Below the pieces are notes generated by a model. That model saw only the letters and a list, made by a program, of their open reading frames with translations. It was not told where the DNA came from and did not search any database. Shown piece after piece: positions 51,230 through 64,000 of a DNA stretch of 64,000 nt. The DNA comes from an uncultured Eubacteriales bacterium (GTDB lineage Bacteria; Bacillota; Clostridia; Oscillospirales; Acutalibacteraceae), in NCBI GenBank assembly GCA_900316385.1, contig ONCP01000001.1, forward strand, positions 215,431-279,430, given 5' to 3'. Made by a program: the position numbers and the translations under genes. How positions within the stretch are numbered: the first letter of the stretch is position 1; each line of letters opens with the position of its first letter.

Positions 51230-52978
51230 ATGGTTTGTAGTTTTGTTGAAGAACTTAGTAAACTAAGAAAGCTATCAGTCGAGTCTGTCGAAAATATAGA
51301 CTCATTCAGTTCATTTAAGGAATACCTTCATGTAGTGCGTCCGGTAGAGGATGAATTGCGCTTGCTGTTGAAAAGAGTGAACGAAGAAAATAAAAAGTGT
51401 TTAGTTTTGCTTTGTGGCAGTGCTGGTGATGGAAAGTCGCACTTGATGTCTTATTTGAGCCATGTTGATCCAGAAGGTTTGCTCAATTCGTTTGAGGTAT
51501 ACAATGATGCGACTGAGAGTAGTGCTCCGACGCTGACTTCGATTGATACATTATCTGAGAAACTAGCTCCGTTTAACGACGCAAATGCGTTAATTGATGA
51601 CGGCTACAAAATGATTTTAGCAATTAACCTGGGAACACTAAATAATTTCATAGAATCAGAAAAAGGAAAGGCATTTTCAAGCCTTAAGAAATATGTGGAG
51701 ACAAACGAAATATTCTCTTCTTATACCCAACGGTACGCTTACCAGGAAAATAGCGTATTTCAGCATGTTAGCTTTGCTGATTATCAGGTTTTTACGCTAA
51801 AGGAAAATGGAGTAGGTACTGATTTTCTAGTAAAGCTTATTGGAAAAATCTTTTTACCTGTTGATGAGAATCCTTTTTATCAGGCGTATAAAAAGAATGA
51901 AAACTGTTCTCTTTGTCAAAGATGTCCTGTTAGACATAATTACGAGTTTTTGTCGCATCCGGAACATCAAAATGCGGTTATTCGTAAAATTGTAGAGACC
52001 GTTATTAAAGATAAAGCAATAGTATCTACACGCGATATCCTCAATCTGATTTATGATATTATGGTACACCCTGAATTTGACTTTAATATCATGTGTGCAA
52101 CCGCTGCATCCGAAGTAAAATTTATAACTAAGTATATCCAGTACACAACACCGATGCTCTTATATGAGTTTAATGATATTTCTCCTCTTATTAATTGTAT
52201 TCGACAACACGATATCTTGAAAGATAGGCAGGAGGAGATGGACGTTTCAACAACCCGATTCCATTCTCTTGAAAACATATATGAGACTTTTTCCGAAGCG
52301 ACAAAGAATACGTCATATGAAAGGCTAAATGAAATAACAAGAATCGCTGTCTTGGGAGGTATTAAACCTGACTTAAAAAAACTCGTTTATAGGTTTATAG
52401 TTAGAACTAAAGAGTTTATAGGAGATTATGAATTAAGTCAATATAAACAACGATTTGCTGAGTATATCAAGTATTTATATTATCAGCATAGCGGACAGGA
52501 GAAACAACTGAAAAAGCTATATGAATCTACCAAAAAAGCAATTATGTCTTGGGATGGTCAGTTCGATAGTGATAGCGTTTGTATTGACGATTCAAACGAG
52601 AGTTTTTGGATCACTGAACAACTGATGCTGCAACCTTCTATATTCAAACCCAAATCAGTAAATGAAGAAGAAATACAACGGTTCTCGACAAATATCAGAA
52701 TTAGGTTGAAAAAGAAAGATGGTAGTGATCTTGAAACCGCAGAGATCGATATGGACTATGCATTGTTTGAAATGATTGCTGATATGCGTGAAGGATATCG
52801 TCCGACTGTTCAGGATAAAAATAGGCATACAGATTTCGTTAGTTTTGTACAGCGATTAATAGAGTTCGGTAATAAAGGAACTCGGATTGAACTTATACCT
52901 AAAGACTGTGAGAAAAATATAAAGATTGTATTTGAGCAGAATGATTTCGGCTATGAATTTAGGGTGGTGCGAGCATGA
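51230..52978 (+). CDS. dptF: Phosphorothioation-dependent restriction protein DptF
   Basis: DptF (DndF) is one of three proteins that restrict DNA lacking phosphorothioate marks. The 582 residues include a Walker A motif CGSAGDGKSHL near residue 65, an N-terminal DSFSSFKEYLHVVRPVEDEL segment typical of DptF, and a CSLCQRCP cysteine motif near 225, perhaps for zinc. It is probably a P-loop ATPase acting on DNA with DptG and DptH. The start has GGAGGT seven bases upstream. It overlaps dptG by four bases (ATGA). Confidence 0.9.
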   Translation: MVCSFVEELSKLRKLSVESVENIDSFSSFKEYLHVVRPVEDELRLLLKRVNEENKKCLVLLCGSAGDGKSHLMSYLSHVDPEGLLNSFEVYNDATESSAPTLTSIDTLSEKLAPFNDANALIDDGYKMILAINLGTLNNFIESEKGKAFSSLKKYVETNEIFSSYTQRYAYQENSVFQHVSFADYQVFTLKENGVGTDFLVKLIGKIFLPVDENPFYQAYKKNENCSLCQRCPVRHNYEFLSHPEHQNAVIRKIVETVIKDKAIVSTRDILNLIYDIMVHPEFDFNIMCATAASEVKFITKYIQYTTPMLLYEFNDISPLINCIRQHDILKDRQEEMDVSTTRFHSLENIYETFSEATKNTSYERLNEITRIAVLGGIKPDLKKLVYRFIVRTKEFIGDYELSQYKQRFAEYIKYLYYQHSGQEKQLKKLYESTKKAIMSWDGQFDSDSVCIDDSNESFWITEQLMLQPSIFKPKSVNEEEIQRFSTNIRIRLKKKDGSDLETAEIDMDYALFEMIADMREGYRPTVQDKNRHTDFVSFVQRLIEFGNKGTRIELIPKDCEKNIKIVFEQNDFGYEFRVVRA

Positions 52979-54366
52979 AATATAGACTAAGTATAGAATC
53001 CTTTGATAAATCTTTTGCGGTTAAAGAGGATGGGAGAAAGCTCACTCATTATAGCGGAAATCGTTTCAAGCTGTTCCCGTTTATTGCGAACAACAATAGC
53101 GTTCCGGTATATGATTTGGGTTCAATAGTAGGTAGATATATAAGTCAAGTCGAAAAGATCAATCCTCAACAGATTACAGTTGAAGAACTAACTGCAAGAC
53201 TTATGGAAGATACGGAAATTGCTCCAGGAGCGGAGGAGTTGTTTCAACAAGTTGTAAAGAGTAATTGCTTTGATCGGAACGGAAAAATTCGTTCTAATAA
53301 CTTAAGAATGATTACGCAGATTCCTTGCGAAGAGTCCAGTGCTCGTAAAGTTGCCGATTATTTAGTTGACGTTCTTGGTGATGAGGAGATCCTTAAGATC
53401 AGTGTTGATCGCGCAACTGCTATACTAGAAGAACAAAGCAACGTGTTGGAAAAGTTCATTATTTCAAAACTTGATCCAAAACCATTACCTCCAAGAGATA
53501 CAGCGACTTATCAACGGATTACCAATGCATTACACAAAAAATACGAAGAAGACTTTGAGTACGTTCTTGGGTCAAGAAACAGAATAAGTGATTATTTAAT
53601 ACCATTATTGGAGTTTTATTACTTTACGTATACAGCTCAAGCAATTCTACAACTTAATCGTTTCCTTGCAGGTGATCGTGATAATTGTATACCTCTCTAT
53701 TTTTGTTTGGACTGGGAAAAGACAAGCTTAAATCGTCTCTGCTACACACAAGGCTGGGGAATGCTTCAGGAAAAAACAAAAAGCATTTTTGCTCATGCTA
53801 TGGTGCATAAAATTTTAAATCAAACTGAAGAAGATTATGGTCCTGTTGATTATATCACACTTGACGAATTAGCACAAGAAGAGGGTGAGGATCATCGCAT
53901 TGCTGAGGAGATTAAAGTGTTAACTGAACGATATCGTAACGCTATCCCAGATTGCCCTAAAATGAAAGAACTTAGAAGACAATATTCAGCTAAAAGTGAA
54001 ACAGCAGCAGAAGTGCGGTTTCTTTTTGAGAGTGTCAGAACGCAATTTGAAAACACATCTCGAAATCGAGTCTATACCGCATATGCAGATAAATTCTCGG
54101 AGTACGTTAAGAAGTATTTAAAACGTCGCGGAAGAAGCGGAATGATGTTGAATCTTACTGAAGAAACTCTGATATTCTTAACTAAAGTTTGTATTAAGGA
54201 TCAAGAGATGATGCGCTTGAATGATGTTTTTAATGAGTTTGAGTTGCGCGGAGTATACTTGGATAATATATCCAAGGAGCAAGTAATGCGTTATTATGAG
54301 AAGCTTAATTTAATCGAAAAGAAGAGCGACAGTGGGGATGCACAATATGTTAAACGAATTCTATAA
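52975..54366 (+). CDS. dptG: Phosphorothioation-dependent restriction protein DptG
   Basis: DptG (DndG) is required with DptF and DptH for restriction; its biochemical role is not known. The 463-residue protein starts MKYRLSIESFDKSFAVKEDG and shows no classic enzyme motif. A basic and helical C-terminal half (for example FSEYVKKYLKRRGRSGMM near 380) may bind DNA or partners. The call rests on the family-like N terminus and its fixed place between dptF and dptH. Both ends overlap neighbours, so the three genes are translationally coupled. Confidence 0.88.
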   Translation: MKYRLSIESFDKSFAVKEDGRKLTHYSGNRFKLFPFIANNNSVPVYDLGSIVGRYISQVEKINPQQITVEELTARLMEDTEIAPGAEELFQQVVKSNCFDRNGKIRSNNLRMITQIPCEESSARKVADYLVDVLGDEEILKISVDRATAILEEQSNVLEKFIISKLDPKPLPPRDTATYQRITNALHKKYEEDFEYVLGSRNRISDYLIPLLEFYYFTYTAQAILQLNRFLAGDRDNCIPLYFCLDWEKTSLNRLCYTQGWGMLQEKTKSIFAHAMVHKILNQTEEDYGPVDYITLDELAQEEGEDHRIAEEIKVLTERYRNAIPDCPKMKELRRQYSAKSETAAEVRFLFESVRTQFENTSRNRVYTAYADKFSEYVKKYLKRRGRSGMMLNLTEETLIFLTKVCIKDQEMMRLNDVFNEFELRGVYLDNISKEQVMRYYEKLNLIEKKSDSGDAQYVKRIL

Positions 54367-57300
54367 ATATATCGCAGACAGCATTGTTGGATTCTTTCAG
54401 GAAAGAATTCAAATTATTCATCCTGGAGATCGATATTGCCTAAGATTAGATACTGCTGAAATGGTTTCTGGCGTTGATAATGCACTGAGGAAGAGAACGG
54501 AAATCGATCAAATTCAGGGTGAGTATCAGTATAATGACGTGTATAATACATTTACGATCAAGTTATCTTCAGCTATTGAGATTGTAATCGCATCAAAAAT
54601 CAATGGGATGACCGATGATTTTCTTGCGACTTTACGTAATGCGGAACATACTGAAAAACACTTTCCAATCTTGATGATTACGCACTCTCCTATCGATACG
54701 ATTACAAGTGGAACAGGAGATTTATCAGCAAATGGAATGCCTTTCCATGCTGAGTCTATAGTAAAAAAGATAAAGGATGAGATAAAAACAGCAGAACTGT
54801 CAGATGCAGATCGAATTCTTTTGGAAATGGAACTGGAGAGAAAGCAAAGTGATCGTTTCAGCGATAAATCATCTTTATTCGAGTACAGTGATTTACTGAC
54901 TGTTTTAGGTAGAGGATACGTGATTGATAGTGATTATGCAGGATTTTCATTGCTTGTTGATGATCGGTTAACCAGTATTCCCAGAGAAAAGATTCGAGAT
55001 CGAATAAACGAAAACCATAGAATTTTCGACAGAATTGATCATGTGTTCAAGCATGGTAATATTGAAAACGATCTTGATAAGGAGTATGATACTCGCTTTA
55101 TTCGCCAATTAATTGATGCAAAGAAAAAAGGATCACCGTGGTATGAGAATTGTACATTTGAAATGGTGAAAAGTTCTCATGATAAGTTAAGACGTAAATT
55201 AGATAATCCTTTGAGTATAAAAGATGAAGATATTGAAAGTTATTCAGGTTCTGCTATTGAATACACGTTTCCTGCTGATTCATTGATGTTTATTCGCAAT
55301 GATGGTGAAAAAGGAGCGAAACAGCGCAAAAAGAATATACTGATTTTTAACCCGGATCAACGTTCAAGTGTAACGGTACGAATTATTTCAAATATCTCAG
55401 TAAGGGACACGTGGGTGGATTGCCGTGGTGCAACATCAACTTGTTCCGGTAAAGAAATATCAATTGAAATGTTGGTTAATAGTTGTTCTTTCTCGCGAAC
55501 GGAAATAAAAGATCCAAATAGCAATATTTCTTATCGAATAAAAATTTGTGTACTAAATCTTTCTCCAAATTTCTTGGAGAATATAATCACGTGTTATTTT
55601 CTTGATGTTCCGAAAGGAAATACGACACGCTCTAGTATTCAAGCTATGGGTTTAAAGCGCGAGCTGGTTATTAATCCCGGTCAACAAGAGACAATTAACA
55701 CAAATGTGCATTCGGATATCACTTATGATTGTAACTATAACCAAACTCTTGATTTGAATTTAGATGAAGAAGCTTTTGAAATAGAAACAGGAACAATCTC
55801 TTTCAAAGTTAAGTGCGGTGCAGTAACAATCCCACTTCAGATAAAAGATGAACCTGTTAAACCTATTGAGCTTACCGGGATCAAAGCACTGAAAAAGAAG
55901 TATTCAGAAAGACGAGGAATAGAATACCGCAACGAAAAACTAGTGTTGGGAACGAAAGAGTATTATGCAAAGCCTCCGTTTAAGGATAGCCTTTCTTTAG
56001 AAAAAGTGATTGTAGATAACGGTTGGCTTGCTGTTCGTGAAACTATCAATGGGTTTGAGGAATACAAGCTAAAAGTAACTGACCCAATCAGGAATGCATA
56101 TTCTGAATTGGTTTCCGAATACAAGCGATTACGGCAATTGCCAAGTCTTGCTTATTTGTCAGGAAAGTTAAAAAGTTTAGCTGAACATTATATCTGTTCA
56201 GTGAGAGAAGCATTGGATAATTTACCGGTTGGTCAGTCTTTATCTGATTCACAAAATGATTTACTGTTGTTGGGAGCAGTTATTCAAAAAAGTGGAGAGC
56301 ACACGATTAAATTTAGTCCGCTTCATCCGTTAAGTATTCTTTATCAGTTGATGTTAATAGAAGAAGATCAGGTTGGAGAGATAAGAGATGATCTTGTAGA
56401 AAAACTAACATCTCTAAATCTGATGCCATATATAAAGGATTCTGAGAAGAGACTGTATTATGCGGTTGAACAAAGGCATTCCCCTGAATGGCACACGTAT
56501 GCCCGTATTACCAATAAACGGTTTCAGGGCGCGAGAAACTATGTACAGAAACTGGTTTGTGATAAAATTACTCAATACATTGATCACTTCACATTTTTGT
56601 TTGATGACATCGGAAATGATAAGCTCTATATTAATCTTATTAATATGGGAGATTGTAGAGAAGTACTGCAAGGTTTGATACGTTATTATGCAAAAGAGCT
56701 CCATGAAGAAAAGGTTCCTGAGTGTTTAATGCGATTTGTATTGAACATTTATTGTGAGTCGGGTTCGTATAATGAGTTTTCTGTATTATCCGATCAAAAA
56801 AGACTGAAGGATTATCTAACAACATACGGAAAGAATGTTGATGATATGAGCGAAATGGCGCTTATCCTCAGCAGTCGTATCAAGTGTTTCTACAGAAGCT
56901 CTATGGAAGAAAAGTATGAGTATGCCCATTTGACTTTCTATGAAATGGAATCTTCTGATAATGATGGGGATAGTCGTATGGATTCCATTGCTACAGGAGT
57001 TTCAATGGGTGGCTTGATTTCCGGTACTCCATCAGTGCTCAACTCAGGGTGGTATAAGACTGGATTTGGGACAAAATATGCAACAGATAATTGTCTTATA
57101 AAAATGGCAAAACGCTATAATGCGCTTTCCCGTGTGGCGTTTTCCGGTAGTTCTTATGAACCTGAATCGGCGATCTTTACAGAGGTTTCTAATAGCGGAG
57201 AAGGTCAGCTTAATAAAATCTATGATTCTTCTAATTGGGTTGTTTTTATAGATCCTAAAGTGGATTTATCCTTTTTTAAGTCCAGTGATTTGGGCGATCG

Positions 57301-59653
57301 AGATTTGATGATTATCCATTACAGCGACCAATATACCTCTGCTAGCGGATATGATGATATTACAGTTACCCGAAAATCCGAACAATATGAAGAAATCATA
57401 AAAGATCAACTTAAACAAAAAGGTGTTAATGCATCAAAACAACAAGTTCATGATATTATTAGCCTATTTAATGCATTTAACGGTGCGTGGATGTTGAGAT
57501 TAATCTCTGCAAAAAAGCTGGCAGGTGCAGTTGACAGTTATTTTAGCCGTGAAAAGATGAGTATTCTTTCCGCAGTCAAGCTATGTATGGCATATTATGC
57601 ACATGATAATATTGTATGGGTTCCGATTTCTCTGGAAGAGATGCTTCGTGTATCCGGGGGTGCTGGATACTCTCAAAAGGATAGTCTGCTTTCGGCAAAG
57701 AATCTAAACTTTGAAAAAGGAGTGACCAGTGATGATGTTCTTTTAATTGGAATAGAGGGACCGGTTGAGGACATAAAACTATATCTTCATCCCGTTGAAG
57801 TTAAAATCGGACAAAATCCAAGCGGAGTAATAGCCAAAGCGTATGAACAGATAAGGCATACATATAGTGGCTTTTGGAATGCACTTTGGCCGAAAAAGAA
57901 TCGTAACGCGTTAGAATGCAAGCTTTCCAGAAATTTCTTGATGCAATTGGTGATTGTGAGTTGCGAAAAATTACAGTTGTATGATGTTTATCCAAATGAA
58001 ACATGGGACAAAGTGACAGATGAATATCGAGAGGCGTTGCTTAATGAAAAATATCGCTTCTCTTCAGCACTTGATGAAATGATCGGTAAAGGAACGGTTA
58101 TCTCTTTTAAAACTGATGCTTTGAACAAGAGCGGACAAATAAATGATGATGTATGTTTGCTGGAACTTCCGGAAAAAATGGGATCGGAGTATATGATCAA
58201 ATCTGCTGCAGAGATCGAAGCAGATTTGGATCGTTCTCAGGTGTATCTTCCTGAGCGGATAAAATACACATATCATTCATCCAATACGGTTCAACTATCT
58301 ACACAGCATTTCGAAAACGAAAATGAGACAGTACCAGATAGAGATGAAGATCAGTCAATAGCAGAAGCTAAAGGAAATAGTCTTAACGAAAGTATCGAAA
58401 TGCTTTCAACGGTTAATGTCAATCCTGTTGAAACAAAGGATGACGGAACTTCTGTACCAATTGAGGAAGAATCAGAAAAACGTAAAAGTATGCAAATCCT
58501 TTTTGGAACTGATGTTTCTAATGGAAAAATGTTGTACTGGTACCCAAATGATACCAATAGGGTTTTTCATACGAATACTGGTATAATCGGAACAATGGGT
58601 ACCGGTAAAACTCAGTTTACAAAATCTTTGATTACCCAGCTTTATCGCGATCAAGCACATAATTTCGATGGGTCTCCTCTTGGAATTTTGATTTTTGATT
58701 ACAAAGGCGATTATAATGAGGGAAAAGAGGATTTTGTAAACGCTACAGAAGCAAAAGTGATCAAACCGTTTCATCTTCCGTTTAATCCTTTGTCGCTGAC
58801 TCGGTCTAGTGTTTTTAAGCCGCTTTTGCCGATTCATACCGCAAATTCATTTAAGGATACTTTGTCAAAGGTATACGGTTTGGGAGCTAAACAGCAAAAT
58901 ACTTTGTTTTCATGTATTACGCAGGCATATGCTGCACGGGGAATAGTTCCGCATGACTCTTCTACATGGGATCGTACTCCTCCGACTTTTGAGATGGTTT
59001 ATAATATATATACCGAAAACGAAGAAATCAAGAAGAATGATTCGCTTGCTGCGGCAATGGAAAAGCTGCATCAATTTCAAATTTTTGAAAGCGATCCGAA
59101 TCAGACAGTATCGCTTTTTGACCTCTTGAATGGTGTTGTGGTAATTGATCTTTCAGGATATGATTCGGATATTCAAAGCTTAATTGTGGCGATTACGCTT
59201 GATTTATTTTACGCCCAGATGCAGGCGGCTGGTTCAAGCAAAATGGATCATCGCTATCGCCAGTTAACAAAAATGATATTGGTGGATGAAGCTGATAATT
59301 TTATGAGCGAAGGATTTCCTGCTTTGAAAAAAATCTTGAAAGAAGGACGTGAATTTGGTGTCGGTGTGATTCTGTCTACACAGTTCCTGAAACATTTCGG
59401 AGCATCGGACGATGACTACGCTAAATACATTATGACTTGGGTTGTCCATAATGTCGCTGATCTCAAGCAATCGGATATCGAGTTTGTCTTTAAAACAGGC
59501 TCCAAGAGCGACGAAACACAACGATTGTTTGATGACATAAAAAAGTTGGAAATACACCACAGTATTGTAAAAACTGGTACTTCTAAGCCCTGTTATATCA
59601 TTGATAAAGCCTTCTGGCAGTTATATCAGGAAATTCAAGAGGAACAGGGCTGA
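54347..59653 (+). CDS. dptH: Phosphorothioation-dependent restriction protein DptH
   Basis: DptH (DndH) is the large HerA-like subunit. The 1768 residues are mostly unassigned up to about 1400. A HerA/FtsK-like ATPase domain follows, with Walker A GTMGTGKT near 1415 and Walker B MILVDEADNF near 1643. A segment EDIKLYLHPVEVKIGQ near 1145 resembles the D...ExK pattern of PD-(D/E)XK nucleases. It is the only candidate nuclease motif I noticed in the three restriction proteins. Three possible starts overlap dptG: GTG 54332, ATG 54338 and ATG 54347. I chose the last because GGGG lies nine bases before it. Confidence 0.88.
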   Translation: MLNEFYKYIADSIVGFFQERIQIIHPGDRYCLRLDTAEMVSGVDNALRKRTEIDQIQGEYQYNDVYNTFTIKLSSAIEIVIASKINGMTDDFLATLRNAEHTEKHFPILMITHSPIDTITSGTGDLSANGMPFHAESIVKKIKDEIKTAELSDADRILLEMELERKQSDRFSDKSSLFEYSDLLTVLGRGYVIDSDYAGFSLLVDDRLTSIPREKIRDRINENHRIFDRIDHVFKHGNIENDLDKEYDTRFIRQLIDAKKKGSPWYENCTFEMVKSSHDKLRRKLDNPLSIKDEDIESYSGSAIEYTFPADSLMFIRNDGEKGAKQRKKNILIFNPDQRSSVTVRIISNISVRDTWVDCRGATSTCSGKEISIEMLVNSCSFSRTEIKDPNSNISYRIKICVLNLSPNFLENIITCYFLDVPKGNTTRSSIQAMGLKRELVINPGQQETINTNVHSDITYDCNYNQTLDLNLDEEAFEIETGTISFKVKCGAVTIPLQIKDEPVKPIELTGIKALKKKYSERRGIEYRNEKLVLGTKEYYAKPPFKDSLSLEKVIVDNGWLAVRETINGFEEYKLKVTDPIRNAYSELVSEYKRLRQLPSLAYLSGKLKSLAEHYICSVREALDNLPVGQSLSDSQNDLLLLGAVIQKSGEHTIKFSPLHPLSILYQLMLIEEDQVGEIRDDLVEKLTSLNLMPYIKDSEKRLYYAVEQRHSPEWHTYARITNKRFQGARNYVQKLVCDKITQYIDHFTFLFDDIGNDKLYINLINMGDCREVLQGLIRYYAKELHEEKVPECLMRFVLNIYCESGSYNEFSVLSDQKRLKDYLTTYGKNVDDMSEMALILSSRIKCFYRSSMEEKYEYAHLTFYEMESSDNDGDSRMDSIATGVSMGGLISGTPSVLNSGWYKTGFGTKYATDNCLIKMAKRYNALSRVAFSGSSYEPESAIFTEVSNSGEGQLNKIYDSSNWVVFIDPKVDLSFFKSSDLGDRDLMIIHYSDQYTSASGYDDITVTRKSEQYEEIIKDQLKQKGVNASKQQVHDIISLFNAFNGAWMLRLISAKKLAGAVDSYFSREKMSILSAVKLCMAYYAHDNIVWVPISLEEMLRVSGGAGYSQKDSLLSAKNLNFEKGVTSDDVLLIGIEGPVEDIKLYLHPVEVKIGQNPSGVIAKAYEQIRHTYSGFWNALWPKKNRNALECKLSRNFLMQLVIVSCEKLQLYDVYPNETWDKVTDEYREALLNEKYRFSSALDEMIGKGTVISFKTDALNKSGQINDDVCLLELPEKMGSEYMIKSAAEIEADLDRSQVYLPERIKYTYHSSNTVQLSTQHFENENETVPDRDEDQSIAEAKGNSLNESIEMLSTVNVNPVETKDDGTSVPIEEESEKRKSMQILFGTDVSNGKMLYWYPNDTNRVFHTNTGIIGTMGTGKTQFTKSLITQLYRDQAHNFDGSPLGILIFDYKGDYNEGKEDFVNATEAKVIKPFHLPFNPLSLTRSSVFKPLLPIHTANSFKDTLSKVYGLGAKQQNTLFSCITQAYAARGIVPHDSSTWDRTPPTFEMVYNIYTENEEIKKNDSLAAAMEKLHQFQIFESDPNQTVSLFDLLNGVVVIDLSGYDSDIQSLIVAITLDLFYAQMQAAGSSKMDHRYRQLTKMILVDEADNFMSEGFPALKKILKEGREFGVGVILSTQFLKHFGASDDDYAKYIMTWVVHNVADLKQSDIEFVFKTGSKSDETQRLFDDIKKLEIHHSIVKTGTSKPCYIIDKAFWQLYQEIQEEQG

Positions 59654-59668
59654 TTGCATCAACTTTAG

Positions 59669-59697
59669 TTGACTTTCACGCCAAGAGATGGTATACT
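59669..59697 (+). promoter_or_regulatory. Promoter of dndBCD
   Basis: TTGACT (59669-59674) and TATACT (59692-59697) have a 17-base spacer. Transcription would begin near 59704, in the middle of the palindrome described next. The -35 box is itself the right part of a 14-base palindrome TCAACTTTAGTTGA (59659-59672). Confidence 0.7.
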
Positions 59698-59727
59698 TAC
59701 GTAGTATACGTAAGTATACCATCTCTT
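59683..59727. promoter_or_regulatory. 45-bp palindromic operator candidate before dndB
   Basis: Two perfect 21-bp arms (59683-59703 and 59707-59727) flank the three bases GTA. GTATAC occurs three times, at 59691, 59704 and 59714. The palindrome covers the -10 box and start site of the dndB promoter and ends 21 bases before the ATG. This is the expected position for a repressor site; DndB is a known repressor of dnd genes in Salmonella. In RNA it could also form a hairpin, but no T-run follows. Confidence 0.65.
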
Positions 59728-59748
59728 AATGTTTTATGGAGGTGTGGT

Positions 59749-60822
59749 ATGAATTTTGCTTATCGGTTTCCTGTTGTGAGAGGCATTCAAGCAGGCAGAG
59801 AATATTATATTGCGATGGTACCACTTAAATTGATTCCAAGATTATTTCCGGCAGATGATGAGTATGTTCCTCCGGAATTTCGAGCTCAAAGAAAGCTTAA
59901 TGAATCACGAATTCCGGTTATCAGTAAATACATTCTGAATAACAGAGAAAACTATGTGTTTTCAGCCTTAGCTGCTTCGATTGATGGTCATTTTGAATTT
60001 ATCCCTAGCGAGTTTTCGGATGTTGGTATTTTGGAAATTGCTATGGATGCAAAGATATTAATCAATGATGGTCAGCATAGAAAAGCGGCAATTCTTGAAG
60101 CAATCAATGAAGATGAAACTTTGTTGAATGAAACAATTTCAATTGTATTTTTTGAAGATCAGGGATTGGCGCGTAGCCAGCAAATGTTTACTGATTTAAA
60201 CAAGCACGCTGTTAAGACCTCAAATTCTATTGCTGAACTATATGATTCCAGAGATATGCTTGCGGTTTCCACCAGAAAAGTAATATCAGAAATTGATTTT
60301 CTAAATACATATACGGATAAAGAAAAAGACAACCTCGGCAAGTATTCCTCAAAGCTGTTTACGTTGAATACATTTTATGTAGCAAATAAAAAAATACTTT
60401 CCGGGAGAACGATTACTGCTGAAACATCCGAGTTTCTCGTAAACTTTTGGCAGAATGTTACCAAGAATATTGTGCAGTGGAATGAATTGCAAAATAAAGA
60501 GATTAGCAAGGTTGACTTGAGAGAAACTTATATCGTAACACAAGCAATTGTTATACAAGCTTTTGGTCGTGTTGGAAATGTTTTCCTTCGTCAACCGGAA
60601 CTTGATATGGATAATGTCTTACTTGGTCTCAAAAAAATTGACTGGAGAAGAAACGCTGATTGCTGGCAGCTGAGAGCAATTAGAGCAAATGGACGCATGA
60701 TCAGCGGAGAAACAGCGGTTTTGTTAACAGCAAATGTTATAAAAAAGGAATTGGGAATGCAATTGGATTCTGACGAGACCTTGAGGGAAGAGAAATTTCT
60801 CCGAGAAAACAGATTAATATAG
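59749..60822 (+). CDS. dndB: DndB, DGQHR-domain regulator of phosphorothioation
   Basis: DndB is the DGQHR-family protein of phosphorothioation loci; in Salmonella it limits expression and modification. The 357 residues carry the DGQHRKAAILEAI signature near residue 107, and the SQQMFTDLNKHAVKTSNS segment near 143. The RBS GGAGGT is six bases before the ATG. It is the first gene of the modification part and is separated from dptH by the palindrome and promoter. Self-repression through the palindrome is plausible but inferred. Confidence 0.9.
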   Translation: MNFAYRFPVVRGIQAGREYYIAMVPLKLIPRLFPADDEYVPPEFRAQRKLNESRIPVISKYILNNRENYVFSALAASIDGHFEFIPSEFSDVGILEIAMDAKILINDGQHRKAAILEAINEDETLLNETISIVFFEDQGLARSQQMFTDLNKHAVKTSNSIAELYDSRDMLAVSTRKVISEIDFLNTYTDKEKDNLGKYSSKLFTLNTFYVANKKILSGRTITAETSEFLVNFWQNVTKNIVQWNELQNKEISKVDLRETYIVTQAIVIQAFGRVGNVFLRQPELDMDNVLLGLKKIDWRRNADCWQLRAIRANGRMISGETAVLLTANVIKKELGMQLDSDETLREEKFLRENRLI

Positions 60823-60835
60823 TGGAAGTGAGAAA

Positions 60836-62368
60836 ATGGTCACACATGAGCAGATAGAAGGACTCATGGAAACTGTTCGGAATCTTTATTTATCTGATGA
60901 TATTCCGTGGGTGATTGGCTACTCCGGTGGAAAAGACAGCACGGCAACTTTACAGCTTGTCTGGTTGGCTTTGCAAGGTTTGTCTGCCGATCAGTTGAAA
61001 AAAACAGTTCATATTATTAACACAGATACCCTTGTTGAGTCACCTGTGGTTGCTAAATGGGCTCAGAAATCTCTGAAAAAGATGGACGAAGCAGCGAATG
61101 TTCAAAAACTGCCGTTTGTACCACATCGCCTTACTCCTGATTTTAACAACACATTTTGGGTCAATCTGATCGGACGAGGATATCCGTTCCCTCGAAAAAA
61201 ATTCAGATGGTGCACAGATCGCTTGAAAATTCAACCGGTCAATAAGTTCATTAAAGAGAAACTGGCAGAACATGGTGAAATCATTATGGTGTTGGGAACG
61301 CGAAAAGCTGAGAGTGTCAATCGTGCCAAAACGATGGCTCACTATGAAAAAAAGCGTGTGAGAGAATTATTGAGCCCAAATCCTACACTTGTAAATGAGT
61401 TGGTTTTTTCTCCTCTTGCGGAGTGGACAGATGATGATGTATGGATTTTTTTAATGCAATACAAGAATCCTTGGGGGTACTCAAACCAGGAACTTTTAAC
61501 ATTATACAAGGGTGCTACACCGGATAACGAGTGTCCGTTAATGGTTGAGAAAGATTTACCGAGTTGTGGAAGAAGTCGTTTTGGGTGTTGGGTTTGTACA
61601 ATGGTTGAGCAGGATCGATCTATGGAAGCCATGATCTCAAATGATGATGAAAAAGTTTGGATGACTCCTTTGCTTGAGTTTCGCAATGAGTTTGGAGATG
61701 AAGACGGAGATAGGGAACGCAGAAGCTTCCGAAGAATGGGAGGATATTTGCAGGGAAGCTATGGCAAGCTTTACCATGGTCCGTACAAAAAAGAAGTCAG
61801 AGAAAAATGGCTTGGAAGATTATTGGAGATTCAAACGGAAATAAATCAAAACGGACCTGATGAGTTTTCAAATTTGGAATTGATTACACTCCCTGAGTTG
61901 CGCGCAATTCGACGCATTTGGGTCAACGAAAAACATGAATTTGACGATTCACTTCCACGTATCTACGAAGAGAAGATCGGAAAGACTTTTGATGATCCGG
62001 AATGGATAAACGCAGGCGTATTTGGTTGTGAAGAATGGGAGATTTTAAAGCAGGTTTGCCAAGATATAAATCCCGAAGAAGAGTTGAACTTCGAAATGAT
62101 GTACACCCTGATTGACGTTGAAAACCGTGCAAATAATTTGAATCAGCGGAAAGGTATTTTAGATGCCTTGGAAGCGTGTATTAAGCATACATTCTACAAA
62201 AATGAACAAGATGCGCTTCAGTTTTACAGGGATCGACTTGACCGAAAGAAAGAATTGGGCGGAAAATATTACGAAAAGTTCTTTGCTGAAACGAAAGACA
62301 ATGGAGAGGAATTTGAACAAGAGGAAAATGTGGAAGATACAGATTTGATCGGAGATGAAACAGAATGA
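60836..62368 (+). CDS. dndC: DndC, PAPS-reductase-like sulfur transfer protein
   Basis: DndC is an iron-sulfur ATP pyrophosphatase resembling PAPS reductase, which takes sulfur from a cysteine desulfurase (DndA or IscS) for backbone modification. The 510 residues have the PP-loop GYSGGKDSTATL near residue 28. Conserved cysteines (CPLM near 233, SCGRSRFGCWVC at about 243-253) are expected to hold the 4Fe-4S cluster. The C-terminal 170 residues are a helical acidic part. It starts 14 bases after dndB and overlaps dndD by four bases. Confidence 0.92.
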   Translation: MVTHEQIEGLMETVRNLYLSDDIPWVIGYSGGKDSTATLQLVWLALQGLSADQLKKTVHIINTDTLVESPVVAKWAQKSLKKMDEAANVQKLPFVPHRLTPDFNNTFWVNLIGRGYPFPRKKFRWCTDRLKIQPVNKFIKEKLAEHGEIIMVLGTRKAESVNRAKTMAHYEKKRVRELLSPNPTLVNELVFSPLAEWTDDDVWIFLMQYKNPWGYSNQELLTLYKGATPDNECPLMVEKDLPSCGRSRFGCWVCTMVEQDRSMEAMISNDDEKVWMTPLLEFRNEFGDEDGDRERRSFRRMGGYLQGSYGKLYHGPYKKEVREKWLGRLLEIQTEINQNGPDEFSNLELITLPELRAIRRIWVNEKHEFDDSLPRIYEEKIGKTFDDPEWINAGVFGCEEWEILKQVCQDINPEEELNFEMMYTLIDVENRANNLNQRKGILDALEACIKHTFYKNEQDALQFYRDRLDRKKELGGKYYEKFFAETKDNGEEFEQEENVEDTDLIGDETE

Positions 62369-64000
62369 TCATTTCAAGACTTACGTTGTATAATTTTGGT
62401 GTATACGCAGGGGAAAATACATTTGAGTTTCATAATGAGAAGCCGATTGTATTGATTGGCGGTTTGAATGGAAGAGGGAAAACTACTTTTTTAGAGGCTG
62501 TTCTAATTGCACTATATGGCATAAACTCTTTTGCATTTAATGAAAGCGAATACAAATCGTATGGACAGTATTTGAAATCTTTCGTAAATAAAGCTGACGG
62601 AACCCTGAACACCTATGTCGAACTTGAAATTAAGCTTGATCGACAACCCGAAGAAGTATATGTAGTCAATCGGAAGTGGTCAGGGGCTGGGCATCGTATC
62701 CGTGAAAAGATCACTGTTTATCGGAATGGCGAGCATAATACATTTTTGACAGATAACTGGTCAATGTTTATTGAGAATATTTTACCCAGCGGACTTTCCA
62801 GTTTCTTCTTTTTTGATGGAGAAAAAATCGCAGAGCTTGCATTGGATCAAACAAATTCTCAAATGAAAGAATCGATCAAAGCATTACTGGGAATATCCAT
62901 ACTTGATGTATTGGAGAATGATATAACCCGTATCATCTCCCGCATTGCAAAAAAGTCGGAGCAGAATCAAGATATAAAAATGTTGGCTGAATTTAGGGAA
63001 AAGAAAAAGCAAGTTGAAACTAAGCTTCGGGAAATAGATGAACAAATTGATTCGCTTTCCTTGCAGTTGGATAAAACAAAGAGACGACTACAAAGAGCAA
63101 AAGTAGATTATACAAATCACGGTGGTGATATTGTTTCTCAACAGCAAGAGTTGTTTAATCAGCGTGCGTATCTTTCTGCAGCTATAATACAGCAGCAAGA
63201 GCATTTAGTTAGCTTAGCAGGTGGAGAATTACCGTTAAGATTGGTTGTCGATTTGTTGCAAAAAGTCCAATTACAGGCTCAAAAGGAACACGAATCAAAA
63301 ATGTTGAGTTTTGCACTGAAAAAAGTATCTGATATTTTTAGCGATTATTCCTTGTCACACTCGGAGGATCAGGTATCAGTTGAGAATTTTGTAAGTTATA
63401 TAGCAAATAGAGCAGAGGAAGAAAAGACTGTATCGTTATATAATTTGTCTGATAAATCGCTCTTTCAGATTGACAATCTCCTTTCAGGTGAACTTAATGT
63501 AGTACAACAGCAAACAAACAAAATCATAAAAGAGCGTGATAATAATAGAACAAAAATCGACCAAATCGATCATTATCTAAGTATTGATATTGATGAAAAG
63601 AGTTTGGCGAAAACCTATAAGAAAATAAAATCTCTTGAGCAGAAAATAATAGATATCAAAACTGATATTGACGTTCTGCAAAAACAACGCGCCACTGCTC
63701 ATGGCGAAGTGCTACGAGTTAATTCTGAGTATAAGAAATGTGTTGAAACACTTCTTGAGGGTCTTGAATCAAACGATGATCAGGATAGAGTTTTGAACTA
63801 TGCACATCAGGCGATAGATCTTTTGACTGAATACAGAATCCGCCTTCAAAGGCAAAAAATTGATGTTTTGGCAGCAACGATGACGCGTTGCTATAAAATG
63901 ATAGCTAATAAGAAGAATCTTATAAAGCGTATTGAAATGGATGATGTTACACTGGATTTTTCTTATTATGATTATCACGGGAACATTATTCCAAACAGTT
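62365..64000 (+). CDS. dndD: DndD, SMC/Rad50-like ATPase, cut by the window edge
   Basis: DndD is an SMC-like ATPase thought to provide DNA nicking or strand-opening in phosphorothioation. The first 545 codons are present, without a stop. They begin MIISRLTLYNFGVYAGENTF and have Walker A GLNGRGKTTFLEA near residue 34, a FFFFDGEKIAELA segment near 150, and a long coiled coil (about 200-500). About 100-120 codons are missing, including the signature and Walker B motifs. The start ATGA overlaps the dndC stop. dndE is expected just beyond the edge. Confidence 0.9.
   Translation, partial: MIISRLTLYNFGVYAGENTFEFHNEKPIVLIGGLNGRGKTTFLEAVLIALYGINSFAFNESEYKSYGQYLKSFVNKADGTLNTYVELEIKLDRQPEEVYVVNRKWSGAGHRIREKITVYRNGEHNTFLTDNWSMFIENILPSGLSSFFFFDGEKIAELALDQTNSQMKESIKALLGISILDVLENDITRIISRIAKKSEQNQDIKMLAEFREKKKQVETKLREIDEQIDSLSLQLDKTKRRLQRAKVDYTNHGGDIVSQQQELFNQRAYLSAAIIQQQEHLVSLAGGELPLRLVVDLLQKVQLQAQKEHESKMLSFALKKVSDIFSDYSLSHSEDQVSVENFVSYIANRAEEEKTVSLYNLSDKSLFQIDNLLSGELNVVQQQTNKIIKERDNNRTKIDQIDHYLSIDIDEKSLAKTYKKIKSLEQKIIDIKTDIDVLQKQRATAHGEVLRVNSEYKKCVETLLEGLESNDDQDRVLNYAHQAIDLLTEYRIRLQRQKIDVLAATMTRCYKMIANKKNLIKRIEMDDVTLDFSYYDYHGNIIPNS

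Follow-up and report, generated by a model that had tools for sequence, protein, structure and literature searches.

What does a long palindrome do in the short interval between the last restriction gene and the first modification gene of a DNA phosphorothioation locus? In the window (the whole 64-kb stretch of DNA analysed here), dptF, dptG and dptH are found upstream of such an element and dndB, dndC and dndD downstream of it. On the + strand, dptH (54332–59653; TIGR03237, 649.6 bits) ends 30 nt 5′ of the palindrome, and is followed by the probable autorepressor gene dndB (59749–60822; TIGR03233, 413 bits against a curated cut-off of 328; PF14072, 394 bits), dndC (60836–62368; TIGR03183, 622 bits) and dndD (62365–63999; TIGR03185, 302 bits), the latter running off the window. 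A preliminary description had taken the palindrome for an operator controlling dndBCD separately from dptFGH, with DndB as the obvious candidate for its binder.

The palindrome and its conserved unit

The element (59683–59727, not assigned to a strand) is indeed the perfect 21-bp inverted repeat described earlier: 45 nt in length, with arms (59683–59703 and 59707–59727) that are 100% complementary around a loop of 3 nt. No other perfect inverted repeat in the window with a loop of up to 10 nt is as long, the runner-up having arms of 13, and no inverted repeat with arms of 11 or more was present in three shuffled windows. The 1.83-Mb source genome contains the site a single time, and a second copy of the paired pattern elsewhere in that genome was accordingly rejected; a second operator before dptF was also discarded, as no dyad with one mismatch or fewer is present nearby.

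Three copies of GTATAC are found in the element (59691–59696, 59704–59709 and 59714–59719) and had been put forward as the sign of a multimeric binder. This triplet was rejected as a functional unit, since the loop that its middle copy spans is variable, as is the G in the two outer ones. Judged by sequence comparison, the conserved unit is instead a 10-bp dyad with the family consensus TACTTAAGTA, represented in the window by operator unit 1 (59694–59703; TACTTACGTA) and operator unit 2 (59707–59716; TACGTAAGTA), neither of which has a strand and which lie 13 bp apart from centre to centre. The two units are flanked by a left outer arm (59683–59693, + strand), which pairs with 59717–59727 and covaries in sequence among loci, and by the right outer arm at the latter position (+ strand), which is T-rich at its end in most relatives.

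For comparison, 81 dndB loci were assembled, consisting of the window and 80 loci fetched from other genomes. The paired dyad TACTTAAGTA was identified just upstream of dndB in 70 of them with at most two mismatches in total, 39 being exact. No sequence reached this threshold among 1620 Markov shuffles or among 243 coding stretches drawn from these loci. The search upstream of other dndB genes that had been proposed earlier thus recovered the core in most loci, window included. Spacing between the dyads is 2–3 nt in 61 loci and 11–14 nt in 12, with none at 4–10 nt, which places the dyad centres approximately 12–13 or 21–24 bp apart, close to one turn of the helix or two. Only two changes on the DndB tree are needed to account for the spacing classes (and three for 2 nt versus 3 nt), so that the helical phasing rests on few independent events and is not strong after correction for descent. 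The conservation of two dyads in helical phase makes a multimeric binder plausible.

Several loci depart from this arrangement. At −55 of dndB, locus L063 carries the dyad in three tandem copies, each 12 bp from the next (TACTTAAGTA gc TACTTACGTA ac TACTTAAGTA), which suggests a ladder of binding units, and in L135 the two dyads are about 32 bp apart. A relative with the dptH-dndB arrangement and a DndB 66% identical (L009, 2418) has lost the dyad pair and retains a half-site. The same operator, at 12-nt spacing and between dptH and dndB, is present in a contig from human faeces filed as “Bacteriophage sp.” (L088; MT836308.1), which is probably bacterial DNA. Seven loci (L082, L091, L151, L152, L154, L157 and L158) have no TACTTAAGTA pair in the 160 nt upstream of dndB and contain between two and four (G)ACTTCC repeats, often 21–22 bp apart; the dndB genes in question come from alphaproteobacterial plasmids, a plasmid of Chloroflexota and an archaeon. 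These repeats may represent a second type of dndB operator, possibly also helically phased.

Overlap with the dndB promoter

The dndB promoter combines a −35 box TTGACT (59669–59674, + strand), a 17-nt spacer and a −10 box TATACT (59692–59697, + strand), and constitutes a good sigma-70-type promoter. By coordinates its −35 box ends 8 bases before the palindrome, rather than the 9 given previously. The −10 box overlaps operator unit 1 and transcription would start at approximately 59704, and both positions fall within the palindrome, as the preliminary description had stated.

This overlap is shared by the relatives. Among the 77 loci with a dyad pair, the best sigma-70 −10 box was located inside the element in 73; counted from the first dyad, its register is −2 in 55 loci, +8 in 13 and +10 in 5. 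In most cases it is preceded at 16–18 nt by a −35 box of the TTGAC type. Promoter scores of at least 10 out of 12 were obtained for 67 of the 77 loci, compared to 70 of 1540 shuffles. The score partly reflects the dyad itself, with which TATACT overlaps, the −35 box being its independent part. That the −10 box is nearly always inside despite shifts of register is the pattern expected of an operator that blocks the polymerase.

Genome-wide specificity and gene neighbourhood

Within the class, the exact paired pattern was present in one of 391 genomes, where it precedes dndB, and a dndB above the cut-off was present in four. The other three dndB genomes carry the variant of the window, a wider-spaced pair (L135), and one good plus one degraded dyad (L138), respectively. 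Since dptH was seen in the upstream stretch of only 17 of the 81 fetched loci, the site tracks dndB rather than dptFGH. An operator for dndBCD apart from dptFGH, as claimed earlier, is therefore well supported by the conserved core, the embedded −10 box and the limited presence of dptH.

Where dptH is missing, dndB is preceded by a gene for an AAA/SMC-like ATPase of 650–670 aa with a partner of 165–190 aa, or alternatively by a pair of proteins of 730–750 aa and 220 aa without a Pfam match (examples of such pairs are L013, 444–2926, and L027, 1–2863); these pairs are possibly other phosphorothioation-linked defence modules. Viral contigs (L094–L133) contain 40 exact TACTTAAGTA pairs, many with the dyads 2 nt apart and some arrayed in tandem, and none of the 40 adjoins a dnd gene. 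Among 59 genomes related by genus, dndB was found only in that of the window itself (G000), and the closest DndB, at 82%, belongs to a Blautia MAG. The dnd region (51230–63999 of the window) was probably acquired horizontally.

Covarying outer arms and the hairpin

The outer arms show a different kind of conservation from that of the dyads. In loci with 0–3 nt between the dyads, the arms remain complementary to about 9–10 positions while their sequence changes. For positions 1–9, none of 1000 arm-swaps paired as well, and the covariation score of the 26 loci at 3-nt spacing amounted to 0.657, compared to 0.230 when shuffled and 0.10–0.22 when the partners were slid. Even among loci whose DndB proteins are 90–98% identical (L035 and L038, for example) the outer arms differ yet pair, and the dyads hardly change, which speaks against DndB specificity as the reason for it.

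This last observation bears on whether the element is a plain DndB operator, with the outer arms forming an extended recognition site for a symmetrical DndB multimer and playing no role at the RNA level. Covarying arms would equally be expected from a homodimer that reads the two in the same way, and the core is kept in some loci with few outer pairs. Nevertheless, arms that change together under a nearly constant DndB and nearly constant dyads do not fit it well, and neither does the distribution of outer pairing, which is absent at dyad spacings of 11–14 nt and mostly missing without a nearby codirectional gene end. At least five outer pairs were counted in 45 of the 52 loci that have the end of a codirectional gene no more than 60 nt away, compared to one of nine otherwise (Fisher 1.7e-5); as only three phylogenetically independent pairs were available (on average 1.4 in favour, 0 against), the association between orientation and outer pairing is to be read as suggestive only. 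Overall, we regard the plain operator as unlikely.

Covarying arms might alternatively be mutational in origin. Long palindromes are prone to self-correction, and template switching of this kind could keep the palindrome perfect and its arms covarying without any selection on them. Such a process leaves the sequence-conserved dyads and the embedded promoter unexplained, as well as the lack of outer pairing where the upstream gene is divergent or distant, and we consider it very improbable.

At the RNA level, the palindrome of the window would fold into a hairpin of −30.5 kcal/mol (z −11.3), the only terminator-like site on the + strand between 50400 and 64000 (13.6 kb). Across relatives the end of the right arm is rich in T (0.61–0.70 at positions 8–11 after the right unit), and in the window a weak U-tract (AATGTTTTAT) comes right after the stem. 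The combination of covarying complementary arms and a T-rich end points to an element that probably also acts, between dptH and dndB, as a terminator-like hairpin, a probable role of the outer arms that is proposed here from the sequences and that the earlier reading had missed. The long hairpin, its T-rich right end in relatives and its being the sole candidate in 13.6 kb would also suit an element that is mainly an intrinsic terminator for dptFGH and overlaps the promoter by accident. A terminator, however, requires no fixed sequence, yet the dyads are near-invariant and kept at helical spacing, and they persist next to divergent upstream genes and in the absence of outer pairing. We find this explanation hardly credible.

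DndB as the candidate binder

DndB is the best candidate for the protein that binds the operator, by analogy with Salmonella-type sites, with which the half-site TAC(G/T)T is shared, though the geometry differs. The window contains TACGN7CGTA at 59698–59712 and not the exact Salmonella motif TACGN10CGTA, which is present in an E. coli record (L086), while in Salmonella Infantis and Pseudoalteromonas TACGTA occurs in clusters.

The predicted structure of DndB (mean pLDDT 84.8) aligns over residues ~15–148 with the structures of Srx, ParB, Noc and KorB, at modest Z-scores of 4.3–5.9 and Foldseek E-values above 0.001. By these modest scores the model appears to have a ParB/Srx-like N-domain, in agreement with the assignment of DndB to the ParB/Srx superfamily (PMC11662687). 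A search by sequence for a solved DndB structure returned none. Cys29, which is conserved in characterised DndB proteins and important in that of Salmonella, aligns to Val24 of the window protein; cysteine is not the consensus at this position among 75 sequences of the clade, nor is it a defining feature of the curated DndB models. The missing cysteine weighs against the autoregulatory reading proposed below, as do the N7 spacer and the weak U-tract.

The earlier proposal of DndB as binder is thus favoured by the Salmonella analogy and by the genome-wide specificity of the site. Co-occurrence alone does not single out DndB, as DndB and DndC exceed their cut-offs in the same four of 391 genomes, every dndC genome also having dndB. 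That same lack of discrimination is what an operator read by another protein, such as a regulator of the host or a different Dnd protein, would have in its favour, together with the inverted repeat of the Streptomyces lividans dndB promoter, which is thought to be read by a protein other than DndB (PMC6186775). Against it, the site adjoins dndB across many families, the predicted DndB appears to have a ParB-like N-domain, and Salmonella DndB recognises comparable half-sites in the promoter of its own operon (PMC4507180). Another binder appears quite improbable to us.

Proposed mechanism and implications

Given its conserved, dndB-specific sequence, its overlap with the promoter and its covarying arms, we think it fairly likely that the palindrome serves as an autoregulatory operator of dndBCD(E), acting through DndB, and carries in addition a probable hairpin against read-through from dptFGH. 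In this mechanism, the −10 box and the start region are overlapped by the two TACTTAAGTA-type dyads of 10 bp, which lie about a turn of the helix from each other; DndB bound there would block RNA polymerase and so keep DNA-sulfur modification low. In RNA read through from dptH, the outer complementary arms would form the long hairpin, and the same 45 bp would terminate or reduce dptFGH read-through, so that dndBCD would rely on its own promoter. More tentatively, one 45-bp element may combine the functions of a DndB operator, a promoter core and a terminator of the upstream restriction genes, a threefold role that we put at a little under an even chance.

If this threefold role holds, the covarying arms would insulate the modification genes from read-through of the restriction genes, allowing modification and restriction to be set separately, and DndB occupancy would tune both initiation and read-through. 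Such an element would be unusual in that the same bases would serve as an operator in DNA and as a hairpin in RNA. The near-invariant operator in many gut clostridia offers a precise site, and suggests autorepression of modification as a general feature. Our literature search for TACTTAAGTA returned no dnd paper, and no account of phosphorothioation autoregulated by a clostridial DndB was found in the literature searched.

Comparison with known systems

The closest parallel is the DndB/DptB operator of Salmonella enterica Cerro 87, for which Cheng et al. 2015 is reportedly the source. Salmonella DndB was shown by DNase I footprinting and EMSA to bind two regions in its own promoter, each with TACGN10CGTA, and to repress the operon (PMC4507180). 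In both systems palindromes with TACG/CGTA-like half-sites are located in the dndB promoter and DndB belongs to the same family, the window protein being 40% identical to a Salmonella Infantis homologue. Unlike the Cerro 87 operator, the window has two adjacent 10-bp dyads one turn apart with an embedded −10 box, an N7 instead of an N10 spacer, arms that extend to a 21-bp hairpin, and a DndB without Cys29.

In Streptomyces lividans, the R repeat near the −10 region of dndB is reported as a positive element that is probably not read by DndB (PMC6186775); it resembles the palindrome as an inverted repeat in a similar position. The N-domain of the DndB model is likened to the palindrome-binding proteins ParB, KorB and Noc through the modest structural alignments given above. 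Finally, the element shares with intrinsic terminators a stable hairpin just past a codirectional gene and, in most relatives, a T-rich 3′ side, but differs from them in that the core is AT-rich, the U-tract in the window is weak and the hairpin overlaps the next promoter.
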